Below are positions 56,398 through 63,103 of a stretch of 64,000 nt of DNA, piece by piece (position 1 is the stretch's first letter; each line of letters begins with the position of its first letter). This DNA is from Chlorobiota bacterium. Lineage in GTDB: Bacteria; Bacteroidota; Ignavibacteria; OLB7. Made by a program: the position numbers and the translations under genes. Where the stretch lies: the NCBI GenBank assembly GCA_028287785.1, contig JAQBOZ010000001.1:62001-126000 (forward strand). Reading direction: 5' to 3'. The notes below the pieces were generated by a model. The model saw nothing but the letters and a program-made list of their open reading frames with translations, had not been told where the DNA came from and did not search any database.

Positions 56398-58929
56398 CTA
56401 CTTCACCAGCGTTATCCTCCCCGTTCCCCTCCCCTGTGACAGCTCCGCGGTGATCGTATACGCCCCGGCCGCAAGCCCCTCCAGATCGATCCGCATGTCA
56501 CCATCGCCGTTGTATCGCAGCGAGCGGACGATCGCCCCCGCCGCGTTCGCGATCTCCACCGTCCCTCCCTTCCGCATCTCCCCGCGCAGATGGACAACGC
56601 CACGGGCCGGGTTCGGGTAGAGAATCAGCGCGCTTGCGGCAGCCGGCTCATCGACTCCCGAGAGCACTGTAAGCGTTGAGAGAACCGTGTTGGTCAGCAC
56701 CGGCGTGTTGTAGTCGAAGTAGATGCCCGCGCGGTTCTCGATCCGCGTGTTGGCCGGAAGGCCGCGCCGCAGCCGGACCGAGTACTTCAGATATCCCTGG
56801 CTGCGAAGATTTTCATGCGCGCTGTCGGGAAGGTTGATGTTCTGGAAATCCCAGATCAACTCCCCGCGATCGCCGATATGAAGCGTGAACGGGTGGCTTG
56901 TGGCGCCGAGCGTAAAGGAGGTCAGATCCAGATTCCTGCTGAGCGTGTCGATCACCACCACCCGCTGCGCGGTATCGTTGCCGTTGTTCTGAAAGCGGAT
57001 AGTGTAGGTAAGCACCGAATCGCGAGGGGTGATATTCCCCGCCTCGCCGGTGCCGACGGGGGCCACCGCGATATCGTTCGGATCGTGGCTGGCGATCACC
57101 GGAATGCATTCGGTCTGCCGGTTGTCGGCGGGGTTTACATCCCCGTCAACATCGGCCGAGGCCGAGGCGCAGACAGTCATGCCGAGGAGAAGATCCCTGG
57201 AGACGGTCCCCCAGACCTGGATACCGACCGACTCGCCAACCCCGATATCATCCGCCTCCCAGACCAGCTTCCCGGCCACGCGATCGGCTTTCGGCTGGCT
57301 GCCATCGTACGTCAGCCAGGAATCGGGATCGAAGTGGATCGTGCATTTCTCGATCGGGACGGTTCCGTGGTTTGTGCAGGTGATCGTGTAGGAGATCGCC
57401 TGACCGGGGCGCGCGATTCCGCCGGTGACGCTGATGCCGATATCGCGGATGCCGGGCATCGGCTCCGCCGCGAAATTGTTCCCCTTCGATGGATCGCCGG
57501 GCGTCATCAGCACCGCCGATCGATCCCCCTGAACATCCGGGCACGTCTGGTTCCAGTACGGCTTTGGAACGAGATGAATACCGTAGGTTCCCGGCTCGGC
57601 ATAGCGCCGGTAGCCGCCGTCGGATTCGGTGATCGCGTAATGCGGGCCCGGCGTTATCTCGATGATCCTCCCCTCCAGCCCCGGCTTTCCGGGATCGGCC
57701 GCGCAATCGTCGGAGGTGCTCTCCATCACCCGCCCGGACATGCCGATGCAGTCAGCATCGGAACAGAGCTTCGCGACATAATTCAGATTCTCGTTGCACG
57801 AGCCTGTGAACTCGCCGCCGGCATAGAGACCTCCCTTGTACTCGATCAGGAAGTGGGCCAGGGAATCTGGCCGCGCCAGGTTCCTGACGCCGGAACCGCC
57901 ATCCCACACCAGCGCCGCGGGGATGGTGTGCATCCCGTTGCTGAAGTAATCCCGTGCGCCGATCAGATAGACCTTGTCATCATACACCGCCGCGCCCAGA
58001 GCACGGAAGTCGCCGTTGACAAGTTTGGATGTCCCGGCCATCGGCCTCCACTCGGCGCCATCCCATCGCTGGATGGTCGCGTCCTTGGCGGGGTTGAACC
58101 CTATCTCTGTCCCGCAGAGCAGATGGAGCTGGTCGTGATAGATGAAGATGTTCGCGACGGGAACCATATTACGACCCCCGACAGTCCCCCATGCCGTGCC
58201 GTCCCACTTCGCGATGCCATGCGCCCCCACCCCACCGATACGGCTGAAGTATCCGCCGACGTAGAGATCGCCATGCCATTCGGCGAACGCGGTGACGTAA
58301 AGGCTGTCATTCGAATCATTTGCCTGGGCGATGGTCCGCCATGCCGACCCGTTCCAGGCCACCACTGCCTCCTGGGGATTTCCCCCCTTGTCGATCGTTC
58401 CGGCCACGATCAGTTCCCCCTTGTAGGAAGTCATCTTGAATGACTCCGTCTGATAGGAGTCGAGTATCCATGTCAGCCCATTACGCAGGGGATTTCCCGG
58501 CACCCCCTTCCAGTTCACCCCGTCCCAGACGGCCAGCCCTGAGGTCTCCGGAAGACCATCGACGGCATCGAAGATGCCGGTGACGTAGAGCAGCCCACCA
58601 TGAACCACAAGGTCGGAGATGACCACCCTGTAGCCTCTGGCCTTCGAACGGCTCAGATGCATCGTCGTGATATCGATCCATGCCGCGCCGTCCCATTTCG
58701 AGAGCGTGACGGTGGTATCGTAGCGATTGTGGAGCGCATAAAGCTCGCCGTTCCAGACCACGGCGTGCACGGCGCCATCCGCAAGCCCGGCGCCGACCGG
58801 CGTCCACGCCTCGGAGTTCGAGCATTCATCGAAGGGAAACTGCGCGCTGGCCGTGCGGGGCAGGCAAAGCAGGAGGAGCGATCCCAGCAGCGTGAGAAGA
58901 ATCGTAGATCTGTTGAAGCGTATGTTCAT
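56398..58929 (-). CDS. T9SS cargo: kelch-like propeller plus DUF11-type domains
   Basis: 843 residues from the ATG at 58929, which opens the signal peptide MNIRFNRSTILLTLLGSLLLLCLP..SAQ; the frame to 59112 is unsupported and overlaps the next gene's upstream region. Residues about 35-410 form a propeller with 'KWDG' repeats (LSKWDGAAWIDI, LAVWDGVNWKGV, IAKWDGTAWGTV, IQRWDGAEWRPM). The middle has a short SD-repeat/collagen-B-like segment (LEGRIIEITPGPHYAITESDGGY). Two DUF11-like beta-sandwich units follow (about 520-760; ISYTITCTNHGTVPIEKC, LTYTIRFQNNGNDTAQRVVVIDTL, IYFDYNTPVLTNTV). The T9SS sorting domain is about 765-843 (LILYPNPARGVVHL, GRITLVK). Probably a surface-exposed binding protein. 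Confidence 0.88.
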   Translation of the reverse strand: MNIRFNRSTILLTLLGSLLLLCLPRTASAQFPFDECSNSEAWTPVGAGLADGAVHAVVWNGELYALHNRYDTTVTLSKWDGAAWIDITTMHLSRSKARGYRVVISDLVVHGGLLYVTGIFDAVDGLPETSGLAVWDGVNWKGVPGNPLRNGLTWILDSYQTESFKMTSYKGELIVAGTIDKGGNPQEAVVAWNGSAWRTIAQANDSNDSLYVTAFAEWHGDLYVGGYFSRIGGVGAHGIAKWDGTAWGTVGGRNMVPVANIFIYHDQLHLLCGTEIGFNPAKDATIQRWDGAEWRPMAGTSKLVNGDFRALGAAVYDDKVYLIGARDYFSNGMHTIPAALVWDGGSGVRNLARPDSLAHFLIEYKGGLYAGGEFTGSCNENLNYVAKLCSDADCIGMSGRVMESTSDDCAADPGKPGLEGRIIEITPGPHYAITESDGGYRRYAEPGTYGIHLVPKPYWNQTCPDVQGDRSAVLMTPGDPSKGNNFAAEPMPGIRDIGISVTGGIARPGQAISYTITCTNHGTVPIEKCTIHFDPDSWLTYDGSQPKADRVAGKLVWEADDIGVGESVGIQVWGTVSRDLLLGMTVCASASADVDGDVNPADNRQTECIPVIASHDPNDIAVAPVGTGEAGNITPRDSVLTYTIRFQNNGNDTAQRVVVIDTLSRNLDLTSFTLGATSHPFTLHIGDRGELIWDFQNINLPDSAHENLRSQGYLKYSVRLRRGLPANTRIENRAGIYFDYNTPVLTNTVLSTLTVLSGVDEPAAASALILYPNPARGVVHLRGEMRKGGTVEIANAAGAIVRSLRYNGDGDMRIDLEGLAAGAYTITAELSQGRGTGRITLVK

Positions 58930-59231
58930 GACGAAATCCCCGTATGATCGGTCGTGGAGCGGAAACGCCGCCGTGGGGCCCATGATCGGGCGGCCGGTCC
59001 CATATTGAAGCGGATGTGAATGGATCGCTCGCACGGCCTCCGGTTGATCCACGTCGCCGGCGAGCTTCTCAATCTGATCAACACGAAATCGCGCTTCGCG
59101 TTGCAGCTTCATCGCCGCGATCTTCCCGCTCCCCGTTTCCGGAAATTCACTGCATCGCTTTTACGATTTTCGTGTTATTCCGGTATGAGGGGTTTCCTCC
59201 CCCGCCGTTACTCACAAACGCAGCAGTACCG

Positions 59232-59807
59232 ATGCGCTTCCGTCTCTCCTCACCCAACCTCACGGGCCGCCCCGATGCCGAGCTGTATGGCATGCTCCGC
59301 GGCGGCCGGAGCGATTCGGAGCGGGCGTTCAAGGAGCTTTATCGCCGGTATGCCTCGCGCATCCACGCCTACTGCTATAAGATCCTCGATAACAGGGAGG
59401 ACGCGGAGGATGTCTTTCAGGAGACATTCGTCAGGCTCTATCTGGGGGCGCGGGAACATCGGGAGATGACCAACCTGACCGGCTATATCTTCAGAATCGC
59501 CAGAAACCTGTCGCTGAATCGCATCCGCGATCACGACGATCTGGAATCGCTGGAGGGAGTGGAGATCCCGATCCACGCCGATCGCTCGCTGGAGGATGGC
59601 GAACTGCTGGATCTGATAGCCGGCGCGGTGGAACTGCTCGATCTGGAGTTCCGCGAGGCGTTCGTCCTTCGCGAGTACGAGAATATGTCGTACGAACAGA
59701 TCGCCGAGGTGGTGGGCTCATCCGTCGCCAACGCGAAGTCGCGCGTCTTCCGCGCCCGGCGGAAGATCAGAAAGCTGCTGGAACCGAACATCAAGGAACT
59801 CGACTGA
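59232..59807 (+). CDS. ECF-type RNA polymerase sigma factor
   Basis: 191 residues from the ATG at 59232; upstream in-frame residues to 59016 do not resemble sigma factors. Region 2 is AFKELYRRYASRIHAYCYKILDNREDAEDVFQETFVRLY (about 33-72) with the DVFQETF core. Region 4 is LLDLEFREAFVLREYENMSYEQIAEVVGSSVANAKSRVFRARRKIRKLL (about 135-183). It begins a three-gene unit with the anti-sigma/barrel protein (30-bp gap) and a lipoprotein (4-bp gap). Divergent from the DUF11 cargo gene; the roughly 300-bp region between the two starts must contain promoters but shows no clear consensus to me. Confidence 0.95.
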   Translation: MRFRLSSPNLTGRPDAELYGMLRGGRSDSERAFKELYRRYASRIHAYCYKILDNREDAEDVFQETFVRLYLGAREHREMTNLTGYIFRIARNLSLNRIRDHDDLESLEGVEIPIHADRSLEDGELLDLIAGAVELLDLEFREAFVLREYENMSYEQIAEVVGSSVANAKSRVFRARRKIRKLLEPNIKELD

Positions 59808-59837
59808 TTCCGATTGTCATCGTTATCTGGAACCGGT

Positions 59838-61109
59838 ATGACCTACGAACATCTGCTTCACGATTTCATCGACGGCACGCTCGACTATCAGGGGGAGATC
59901 GCTCTCTTCTCGGAGTTGCGCGCCAATGACAACCTCCGCCGCGAGCTGAAGCTGCTGATGCTCATGCAGAAATCGGCGGCGCACGATGTGGGCGCCTACA
60001 TGCCGGCCGCCGATTCGCAGGAGGCGATCTTCCGCAGGCTTGGCTTCTCCGCCGGGCCGGCAACCCCGCCGGCCACGGGATATGGATGGCGGAACATGTT
60101 CATCGGCAGATATATGGATGGTTTGGTCGGCGCTCTGGTCGGAACGCTTGTCACGCTGCTGGTCATGTTCGGCACCGGTCATCCGGCCGCGAACGATGGC
60201 GGCAACGAAATCGCGTCGGCATCCCACGCGATCATCCCGGCATCCCCGGTTCATCATGACACCCTCTTCCTCCACGATGTCACGGCGCAGGGGAATGGAA
60301 ATGCGATGGGGAACGGAGCCGCCGCAATGGTGGCCGGGCGGAATCAGGCTCCGACGGCTCCCGGACTCCATCGCCCGGAGCAGCGGATGATGCACGGCAA
60401 TGGAATGGGCGACGGGGAGATGCCCCGGAGAACGGTCTCCGATCGTACAGGCACCAGCCATGAGATCGGCACGCAGGCGCCAGCCGGCGCGATGATCTCG
60501 TATACGGCACCGCGCCACGTGGCAATATCCCCCGCCGCCGGCACGATCAGCGAAGCCATTTCCACTGCCGAACCGATGCCGGCGATCTCCCTCCCCCGTT
60601 CGGAGGAAACCGCCGATGACCTTCTCCCATTCTCGACGGAGTACCACGCGGTCGCCAGCAGGAATTTCATCACGCCGCCGGCTGGCCTCGAGGTCGGCTC
60701 CAGCGGCCTCCTCCGCGACCGGGAGCTGGCGGGATTCTATCATCTGGGGAACGGAGGGCGGATCGGCATCGCAACAGGCGAGGAGACGTTCTACCAGCGA
60801 TTCAACGAGCTGCTGCCGACGGGCGATATCGTCCGGCACGAGCAGAGCCCCGCGCTCCTCTGGGGGGGCGTGGCCTTCCGGCAGTCGATCGGCACGATAT
60901 CGGCGCTGGAACCGTTTGTGGGGGGCGTCATCGGCGCCACGCGTCTCGGGCCGATGGGTCGGATCTCCCTTGGCGCGGCGTACGGCATCACCACCGATAT
61001 CAGCCTCACGGCCGGTGGAGAGATGAGCGCCCTTGCCTACCGGTTCGGCGGGAGCTGGTATCTCTCACCGAAATACGGCTTCACCTATGGTCTTTCACTC
61101 AGGTTCTGA
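59838..61109 (+). CDS. Anti-sigma factor fused to a putative outer-membrane beta-barrel
   Basis: 423 residues from the ATG at 59838. Residues 1-90 form a helical cytosolic segment (YEHLLHDFIDGTLDYQGEIALFSELRANDNLRRELKLL) resembling the N-terminus of the other anti-sigma in this window. A membrane helix follows at about 94-113 (DGLVGALVGTLVTLLVMFGTG). Residues about 115-270 are a low-complexity periplasmic linker rich in Gly, Ala, Pro and Met. Residues about 275-423 have alternating strands with Gly/aromatic girdles (LWGGVAFRQSIG, LEPFVGGVIGATRLG, RISLGAAYGITTDISLTAGGEM, FTYGLSLRF) and end in Phe, the classical C-terminal signature of outer-membrane barrels. One chain could thus touch cytoplasm, periplasm and outer membrane. 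Comparable domain combinations occur in Bacteroidota annotations, but the mechanism is unproven. An alternative is a soluble periplasmic beta-domain. Confidence 0.75.
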   Translation: MTYEHLLHDFIDGTLDYQGEIALFSELRANDNLRRELKLLMLMQKSAAHDVGAYMPAADSQEAIFRRLGFSAGPATPPATGYGWRNMFIGRYMDGLVGALVGTLVTLLVMFGTGHPAANDGGNEIASASHAIIPASPVHHDTLFLHDVTAQGNGNAMGNGAAAMVAGRNQAPTAPGLHRPEQRMMHGNGMGDGEMPRRTVSDRTGTSHEIGTQAPAGAMISYTAPRHVAISPAAGTISEAISTAEPMPAISLPRSEETADDLLPFSTEYHAVASRNFITPPAGLEVGSSGLLRDRELAGFYHLGNGGRIGIATGEETFYQRFNELLPTGDIVRHEQSPALLWGGVAFRQSIGTISALEPFVGGVIGATRLGPMGRISLGAAYGITTDISLTAGGEMSALAYRFGGSWYLSPKYGFTYGLSLRF

Positions 61110-61113
61110 CCCG

Positions 61114-61683
61114 ATGCGCGCTCACATTATCATGATCATGGCGGCCGGCATCCTGGCCGCGCTCGCCTCGTGCGGATCACCTCTCGACGTTACCACGCCG
61201 AGGATCGACACGCGCCTGACCAACGCCATCAAGCTGCGGGAAGTATCGGTGAACGCGAGGATCGTGGGGACTGATGATTCCGTGACGATCGACTCCTGGC
61301 CGTACGATGTAACCGGGTCGAGCCTCTCCGCCGATACCAACGCGGAGCCGCCACCGGTATCGCTCGACCGGAGCATGACATCCCGCGCCGCCGATACCAT
61401 CCGCGCCGTCTGGCTCCAGGAGCTTCGCATCCGCATCGACACGGCCAGCTCCAACGGGATCATCACGCTGAACGGCAATGCCGCATCAGGCTCCGGGGCA
61501 TCCGCCCGGATCGTGATCGATGGCGTGGAGCATCTGATCGCCACCGGCTACAATGCCAGCGCGGTCCTGCATTACAGCCGCGACAATCGGCGGACCATCC
61601 ACGGGACGATTCTCATCGGCGCGGAACGTCCCTCCGCCTTCATCCTCCTGATCGCCATCAACTTCACCGCCAGCCAGGACTGA
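61114..61683 (+). CDS. Small lipoprotein of the sigma/anti-sigma operon
   Basis: 189 residues. The signal is MRAHIIMIMAAGILAALASCGSP with a lipobox (ALASC, Cys about residue 20). The mature region is beta-rich with Thr/Ser/Asp-rich loops (RLTNAIKLREVSVNARIVG, LQELRIRIDTASSNGIITLNG, ARIVIDGVEHLIATGYNAS) and ends in a hydrophobic strand (AFILLIAINFTASQD). I do not recognise a family. Its start lies four bases after the anti-sigma/barrel stop, so translation is probably coupled. Its likely role is as a periplasmic or outer-membrane partner of that protein, by position only. Confidence 0.8.
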   Translation: MRAHIIMIMAAGILAALASCGSPLDVTTPRIDTRLTNAIKLREVSVNARIVGTDDSVTIDSWPYDVTGSSLSADTNAEPPPVSLDRSMTSRAADTIRAVWLQELRIRIDTASSNGIITLNGNAASGSGASARIVIDGVEHLIATGYNASAVLHYSRDNRRTIHGTILIGAERPSAFILLIAINFTASQD

Positions 61684-62119: not shown

Positions 62120-63103
62120 ATGAAACGTCGCAGCTTTCTTCAGGCGTCGGGATTTACCCTGACGGCTTTTTTCGTATCACGCACGATCGTCGCGCGCGAG
62201 CTTCTGCATGGCTTCTGGCTGAAGATCGCCAACCCATCGGTCGTGAAGGACGCGCGGCCCATTCCGGCATTCACCCCCTTCACCCCGCCGCGCTCGGAGG
62301 GGATGCGGTTTCTGATCCTGGGCGACTGGGGAACCGGGGGACGCGAGCAGGCCGATGTTGCCAGGGCGATGGCCCGCACCGCCACGCAGAGCGGCTGCGA
62401 CTACGTCATCTCCGTCGGCGACAACATCTATCCCTCCGGCGTCTCCTCGGCGGCCGATGAGCAGTGGAAACGGAAGTTCGTCGATGTCTACTACGGCCAG
62501 GGGCTGCGCCAGCCCTTCTTCCCCACGCTCGGCAACCACGATTACAAGCTGGAGCCGGACGCGCAGATCGCCTACAGCAGGGTCAACGAGCAGTGGCGGT
62601 TTCCGGCGCGCTACTACACCCAGAAGCTGACCGCGAAGGATGGAACCACGGTGCAGATCTTCTCGCTCGATACACAGCTCGTGGACAGGAGCGTGGCGGG
62701 AGCGGCCGCGGAACAGCGGGCATGGCTGGATAGCGAGCTGGGGAAATCGACTGCGCGGTGGAAGATCGTCTTCGGCCATCACATGCTCTACTCCAACGGC
62801 GTCTACGGCAACCTGAAGCCGCTCCGCGCCGCATTCGAGGATATCCTCGTAAAGCACAAGGTCCCGCTCTACATGTGCGGCCATGACCACGACATCCAGC
62901 TTCTGAAGCCGGTGAACGGCGTCAGCTACCTGATCTCCGGCGGCGGCGGCGGCCACCGCGACACATCATGGCGCGACAACACGATCTACGCGGCCACGAA
63001 CATGGGATATGTCTGGATGGTGGTGACGAGGGATGGCATCCATGTACACTTTCACGATGCTGACGGGGCCTTGAAGTACGCGCACAAGGTGATTTCCGCC
63101 TAG
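62120..63103 (+). CDS. Tartrate-resistant acid phosphatase-like metallophosphoesterase (Tat-type signal)
   Basis: 327 residues. The N-terminus MKRRSFLQASGFTLTAFF has the twin-arginine motif RRSFLQ, so export folded through Tat is likely. Metallophosphoesterase motifs are complete: FLILGDWG (first Asp), VGDNIYPSG (GDN), TLGNHDYK (GNHD), FGHHMLYS and CGHDHDIQLL (GHxH). The order and spacing, including YPSG after GDN and a DVYYGQG segment, resemble purple/tartrate-resistant acid phosphatases that hydrolyse phosphomonoesters with a binuclear metal centre. No phosphate-regulation element is visible. It is convergent with the FAH-family gene across a terminator hairpin. Confidence 0.92.
   Translation: MKRRSFLQASGFTLTAFFVSRTIVARELLHGFWLKIANPSVVKDARPIPAFTPFTPPRSEGMRFLILGDWGTGGREQADVARAMARTATQSGCDYVISVGDNIYPSGVSSAADEQWKRKFVDVYYGQGLRQPFFPTLGNHDYKLEPDAQIAYSRVNEQWRFPARYYTQKLTAKDGTTVQIFSLDTQLVDRSVAGAAAEQRAWLDSELGKSTARWKIVFGHHMLYSNGVYGNLKPLRAAFEDILVKHKVPLYMCGHDHDIQLLKPVNGVSYLISGGGGGHRDTSWRDNTIYAATNMGYVWMVVTRDGIHVHFHDADGALKYAHKVISA

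Follow-up and report, generated by a model that had tools for sequence, protein, structure and literature searches.

The three-gene operon at positions 59232-61683 of the window (the whole stretch of 64,000 nt that was analysed) probably encodes a self-regulating, Dma-type device for signalling across the envelope. In this device one predicted polypeptide would reach from the cytosol to the outer membrane, and a lipoprotein would be docked to it as a partner. The genes lie in the order ECF sigma factor, 423-amino-acid fusion protein and lipoprotein, with spacers of 30 and 4 bases. The features of the locus are listed below.

59151-59178, plus strand: putative cognate-ECF promoter, TGCATCGC-N12-CGTGTTAT (-35/-10), 53 nt 5′ of the sigma ATG.
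59232-59807, plus strand: ECF sigma factor, 191 amino acids (Pfam Sigma70_r2, E 5e-16; Sigma70_r4_2, E 4e-13).
59838-61109, plus strand: whole fusion gene, 423 amino acids, predicted Dma-like trans-envelope anti-sigma factor, ending in YGLSLRF.
59847-60062, plus strand: cytosolic anti-sigma domain, fusion residues ∼4-75 (weak Pfam matches in paralogues; PDB match to RseA).
60120-60176, plus strand: inner-membrane helix, fusion residues 95-113 (hydropathy maximum ∼2.0; position kept in relatives).
60180-60629, plus strand: disordered periplasmic tether of ∼150 residues (152 in the window), with no predicted domain.
60630-61106, plus strand: predicted eight-strand outer-membrane beta-barrel, fusion residues 265-422/423, with terminal Phe (AlphaFold2, Foldseek).
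61114-61683, plus strand: lipoprotein gene, 189 amino acids (signal peptide, lipobox LASC, Cys20; residues 20-38 disordered, 39-188 all-beta).
61171-61203, plus strand: lipid-proximal motif CGSPLDVTTPR (family form CxSPLDxDTPR), putative docking segment, conserved and predicted to be unstructured.

Only the sigma gene matched Pfam; neither the fusion nor the lipoprotein did. The top NCBIfam model for the sigma factor was TIGR02985 (Sig70_bacteroi1), with a score under the curated cut-off. A genome of the same genus retains all three genes in the same order, with a fusion protein 40% identical across 423 residues, and we therefore take the three genes to be real. This trio, with a lipoprotein gene immediately past the fusion stop, had been read from the letters in an earlier note, and it is confirmed by coordinates, Pfam and the lipobox.

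Relatives of the fusion protein were searched for in 61 genomes (the window's own and 60 relatives); matches were found in 20 of them, and 54 family loci, L007 included, were fetched. In 53 of the 54, the gene immediately 5′ of the fusion gene, in the same orientation, encodes an ECF sigma factor, and the remaining locus ends at a contig edge. The same was seen for all 39 barrel fusions at held-out loci, nearly all of them from previously unused genomes, so the sigma-fusion order that the earlier note had proposed to look for in homologs is conserved. A lipoprotein gene comes next after the fusion at 46 of 51 barrel-bearing loci and at about 31 of 39 held-out ones (counted by eye, with lipoboxes PSC, NSC and HAC taken as real), which bears out the sigma/fusion/lipoprotein unit. 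The window's own genome holds three more full-length relatives (27-35% identity) and more distant ones, with at least four full barrel fusions. The locus is thus as first described, and it belongs to a multicopy family.

Some members depart from this layout. At L081:5372-6364 and L088:5741-6814 a Ycf48/BNR repeat domain replaces the barrel and no lipoprotein lies downstream. L211:2634-4529, in the window's own genome, encodes a 632-amino-acid protein with a related anti-sigma domain; its tether is far longer, and its barrel-like C-terminus is of another kind. No sigma gene was found immediately 5′ of it in the scan.

The N-terminal domain of the window fusion contains no cysteines and hence no zinc site. 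Pfam matches in relatives were all weak (RseA_N in 4 of 47, zf-HC2 in 3 of 47), and the window fusion itself did not match Pfam RseA_N (PF03872). The top PDB match of the family profile was the cytoplasmic domain of RseA (1or7_C, query 9-57, E 0.043). These matches, weak as they are, argue with moderate strength for an RseA-like anti-sigma domain. The resemblance to E. coli RseA and sigma-E includes the single inner-membrane helix and the ECF partner; RseA is without an outer-membrane tether or a barrel of its own, is cut by DegS/RseP and senses misfolding of outer-membrane proteins. In the FecI-FecR-FecA system an outer-membrane barrel likewise signals to an ECF sigma factor, but the TonB-dependent barrel and FecR are separate there, whereas the window fusion is one chain. 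No Pfam FecR match was obtained with the window fusion, and its operon neighbours include no TonB-dependent transducer.

The membrane helix is presumably oriented N-in, C-out; the positive-inside bias across the family is weak, with 20 members for it and 11 against. In the family the tether measures 98-259 residues (median 148), is rich in P/S/T/A and is free of Cys. At a contour of ∼0.35 nm per residue, 98 residues span ∼34 nm, which exceeds the usual periplasm, so even the shortest tether has ample contour for the crossing.

With a 51-sequence alignment, AlphaFold2 modelled residues 255-423 as eight long strands with a mean pLDDT of 93 and a pTM of 0.84. All ten listed Foldseek matches in PDB at E≤0.001 are outer-membrane proteins, among them FadL, NspA (TM 0.60/0.65), OmpA, OprF and a Legionella Dot/Icm machine porin. 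TM-scores against eight-strand barrels are moderate (0.5-0.65), and the barrel profile retrieved nothing from PDB sequences at E≤1. OMP_b-brl matches were found in three paralogues, and the C-terminal ends are of the Phe/Trp type. The barrel that had been read by eye is therefore upheld by the model and its outer-membrane fold matches. The linker and barrel put at about 150 residues each are both present, at revised sizes of ∼152 residues for the linker and ∼158 for the barrel (265-422). The proposed topology from cytosol to outer membrane is likewise supported, as a prediction, by the structure model and by conservation over ∼90 loci.

Dma1, the reference point for such a design, was reportedly first described in a founding PNAS paper. 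Dma stands for dual membrane-spanning anti-sigma; the proteins of this Bacteroides family have the same architecture as the window fusion, and Dma1 and Dma2 were shown genetically to restrain their sigma factors (PMC13088901). In B. thetaiotaomicron the effect of deleting dma2 depends on das2, and bt_1555-1557, including the third gene of the operon, are among the genes most raised in the deletion (PMC13088901). That one chain can carry a signal from the outer membrane as far as RNA polymerase was described in Bacteroides a short time ago; the design is reported from Bacteroidota alone, with its signals given as unknown (PMC13088901). The statement in the earlier note that no such mechanism had been described is accordingly outdated.

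The window fusion shares with Dma the anti-sigma domain, the one helix, the disordered tether, the C-terminal barrel and the adjacent sigma gene, and with Dma2 also the three-gene operon. Four Bacteroidales proteins, reached via their ECF sigma genes, were taken as Dma1/Dma2 orthologues from gene order and not by name. Two Bacteroidales genomes yielded both Dma1-like loci (L152 and L153, beside a divergent NigD gene) and Dma2-like ones. The Dma2-like loci L172 and L181 consist of a sigma gene, a fusion gene and a DUF4943 lipoprotein gene, so that the third gene encodes a lipoprotein there too. NigD as the third gene was rejected, as it is absent from the window's own genome and occurs in only two Bacteroidales genomes of 247. 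Comparison with the four proteins by hhalign gave probabilities of 3.4% for the barrel and 0.3% for the N-terminal domain, that is, no detectable homology. The Bacteroidales profile matched in none of 80 genomes of the window's class, while the positive control recovered itself, and searches with window-family sequences returned nothing full-length outside the class.

Further differences are that the Bacteroidales N-terminal domain has ∼45-60 residues against ∼80 in the window family, that the Bacteroidales barrels are OMP_b-brl(_2), and that the third genes of the two groups are unrelated. The host of the window family is Ignavibacteria-like, not Bacteroidales, and carries many more paralogues. 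The Dma sigma factors belong to the ECF21 group, and those of the window's class group together (98/99), separately from the Das1/Das2-like sequences; a common clade of the two was not rejected (AU p 0.27), and an independent origin of the two architectures is not established on the sigma tree. The window system may well work like Dma, its architecture being one already known; homology is detectable at neither end.

The sequence AAC-N15-GTGT occurs 5′ of 24 of 53 sigma genes, and A[AT]C-N15-GTGT 5′ of 26, where shuffled sequences gave about 1. This enrichment peaks sharply at spacing 15, the spacing of the window promoter, and is missing from the reverse strand. Allowing ≤3 mismatches, the 28-mer pattern of the window matched once in each of the two genomes of the genus, both times at the operon. 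A regulon search with the window promoter returned the operon's own site alone at the same threshold; matches of a relaxed promoter were scattered and were read as chance. The pattern was present at 5 of 39 held-out loci and is thus valid for part of the family. Such an upstream motif usually marks an ECF operon that regulates itself, and autoregulation is therefore implied by the shared promoter.

AlphaFold2 modelled the window lipoprotein as an all-beta domain preceded by a signal helix and a disordered segment (pLDDT 78.6). No Pfam or NCBIfam match and no PDB fold match at E≤0.001 was obtained for it, and we regard the domain as a novel beta domain of no known family. Third-gene domains differ by subfamily: VWA in six, serpin in four, META in two and Ig/ASH-like in some. 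Clades of the sigma tree match lipoprotein type almost perfectly (8 changes, against 24 in shuffles), in part because orthologues are near copies.

In front of these domains a lipid-proximal motif recurs, with Pro at +4 in 40 of 67 third genes, Asp/Glu at +6 in 38 of 67 and Arg at +11 in 32 of 67. A strict pattern picked out 35 of the 67 third genes and 4 of 33 other lipoproteins, from a control set of ∼30 lipoproteins of the fetched loci; these four appear to be third genes mis-assigned through start choice, and three of them are traceable. CxSPLDxDTPR is present in the VWA group and absent in the serpin, META and some other lipoproteins. Close to the lipid, the Bacteroidales DUF4943 lipoproteins (L172:4462-4986 and L181) have the residues D-x-N-N-P (CNGEEMDQNNPD, CNEEAVDYNNPD), which are faintly like this motif and possibly a shared docking feature. 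A serpin-domain third gene is apparent at L049, L064, L070 and L086, the four loci being assigned through shared sequence (best Pfam Serpin E 8.5e-115), which suggests a surface role in protease sensing or protection.

The lipoprotein might be a mere output of the sigma factor, for instance a protective or vesicle-related surface protein, with the barrel alone receiving the signal. We consider this unlikely, though deserving of weight. For Das1 in Bacteroides, nigD1 is an output gene, and dma2 deletion raises bt_1555-1557 (PMC13088901); the serpin and META lipoproteins are effector-like and are without the motif, and an autoregulated operon is compatible with an output gene. However, an output protein needs no common lipid-proximal motif before unrelated domains, and lipoproteins are seen with barrel-type anti-sigmas only. 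Four short anti-sigmas of the family that stop after the tether, with no barrel, are not followed by a lipoprotein gene, and three of the four stand ahead of OmpA-family genes (Fisher p 0.0004 for lipoprotein with barrel); we therefore read the lipoprotein as belonging with the barrel. The short barrel-less members L208, L210 and L213 (genome G022 and the window's own; 205-222 amino acids) are followed by an OmpA-family protein of ∼700 amino acids, a possible split version with barrel and anti-sigma factor as separate genes. As an analogy to the proposed lipoprotein docking, a lipoprotein and a small barrel act as envelope sensor in RcsF-OmpA and RcsF-BamA, with no homology claimed; the output there differs, being the Rcs phosphorelay.

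It is improbable that the fusion is an ordinary regulated-proteolysis anti-sigma factor whose barrel is only an anchor and whose tether is cut by periplasmic proteases on signals unrelated to the barrel. The RseA-like N-terminal domain and the long, protease-accessible tether would suit such a protein, but the barrel is retained and conserved to the C-terminus in 51 of 54 members (one further member is cut). Barrel and sigma factor also covary (Mantel r 0.71), although operon inheritance alone could give the same result.

Still less probable is the idea of the earlier note that the device reports general outer-membrane/BAM assembly failure or the distance between inner and outer membranes. Either could be reported, given that the barrel needs assembly and the tether spans the periplasm, but a genome carries several paralogues whose lipoproteins differ, and a 2.6-fold variation in tether length (98-259 residues) fits a slack tether better than a ruler. 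Assembly or distance sensing is thus not supported; the pairing of each paralogue with a distinct kind of lipoprotein favours a set of specific sensors over a general gauge. That the barrel never reaches the outer membrane, the C-terminal domain being a periplasmic beta domain, is highly improbable: the window fusion has no Pfam match from sequence alone, but the confident barrel model, the outer-membrane barrel matches, OMP_b-brl in three paralogues and the Phe/Trp-type ends all speak against it.

We thus favour a one-chain unit of the Dma type with a docked lipoprotein. As long as the barrel sits in the outer membrane, the anti-sigma domain would keep the sigma factor at the inner membrane; the conserved lipid-proximal segment of the lipoprotein would dock on the barrel. 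The trigger would be a change at the barrel or in its partner lipoprotein (a ligand, its absence or damage to it); relayed along the tether, either as a pull or as exposure of the tether to a protease, this change would free the sigma factor. The freed sigma factor would then transcribe its own operon from AAC-N15-GTGT, and more inhibitor and lipoprotein would close the loop. On the most likely reading the barrel gates sigma release, and the lipoprotein probably shares in the gating. The variable lipoprotein domain would set what each paralogue senses or protects, and the lipoproteins may be what each copy senses. More tentatively, and less probably than not, the barrel could be a socket for CxSPLDxDTPR on which heads (VWA, serpin, META, beta) have been exchanged in evolution, giving each sigma factor its own input, in a trans-envelope design possibly independent of Dma.

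The model draws on the barrel folds, the RseA-like N-terminal domain, the sigma gene order, the tether length, the promoter, the lipoprotein linkage, the lipid-proximal motif recurring before unrelated domains and the agreement of sigma clades with lipoprotein type, and also on the B. thetaiotaomicron dma2 deletion, whose effect needs das2 and which raises bt_1555-1557 (PMC13088901), in keeping with the proposed loop. Counted against it are the weak N-terminal domain matches, the promoter at 5 of 39 held-out loci, the weak positive-inside signal, the motif missing in serpin and META lipoproteins, and a few barrel fusions without an adjacent lipoprotein.

New here are the shared promoter AAC-N15-GTGT and the unrelated lipoprotein domains, often behind CxSPLDxDTPR. 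The design extends to a lineage near Ignavibacteriota (NCBI, nearest named relative), in several copies per genome, whose parts have no detectable sequence relation to Bacteroides Dma. Its third-gene lipoproteins offer a testable lead on what Dma-type systems sense, and natural variation in tethers (98-259 residues), lipoprotein heads and barrel-less members provides ready comparisons for mechanism.

The flanking genes were read by eye. The minus-strand neighbour at 56398-59112 encodes a protein whose C-terminal domain resembles T9SS type A (..LYPNPARGVVHL..KGGTVEIANAAG..), preceded by beta-propeller-like and DUF11-like stretches. Past the lipoprotein gene, the product of 62120-63103 is metallophosphatase-like, with a possible twin-arginine start (MKRRSFLQASGFTL).
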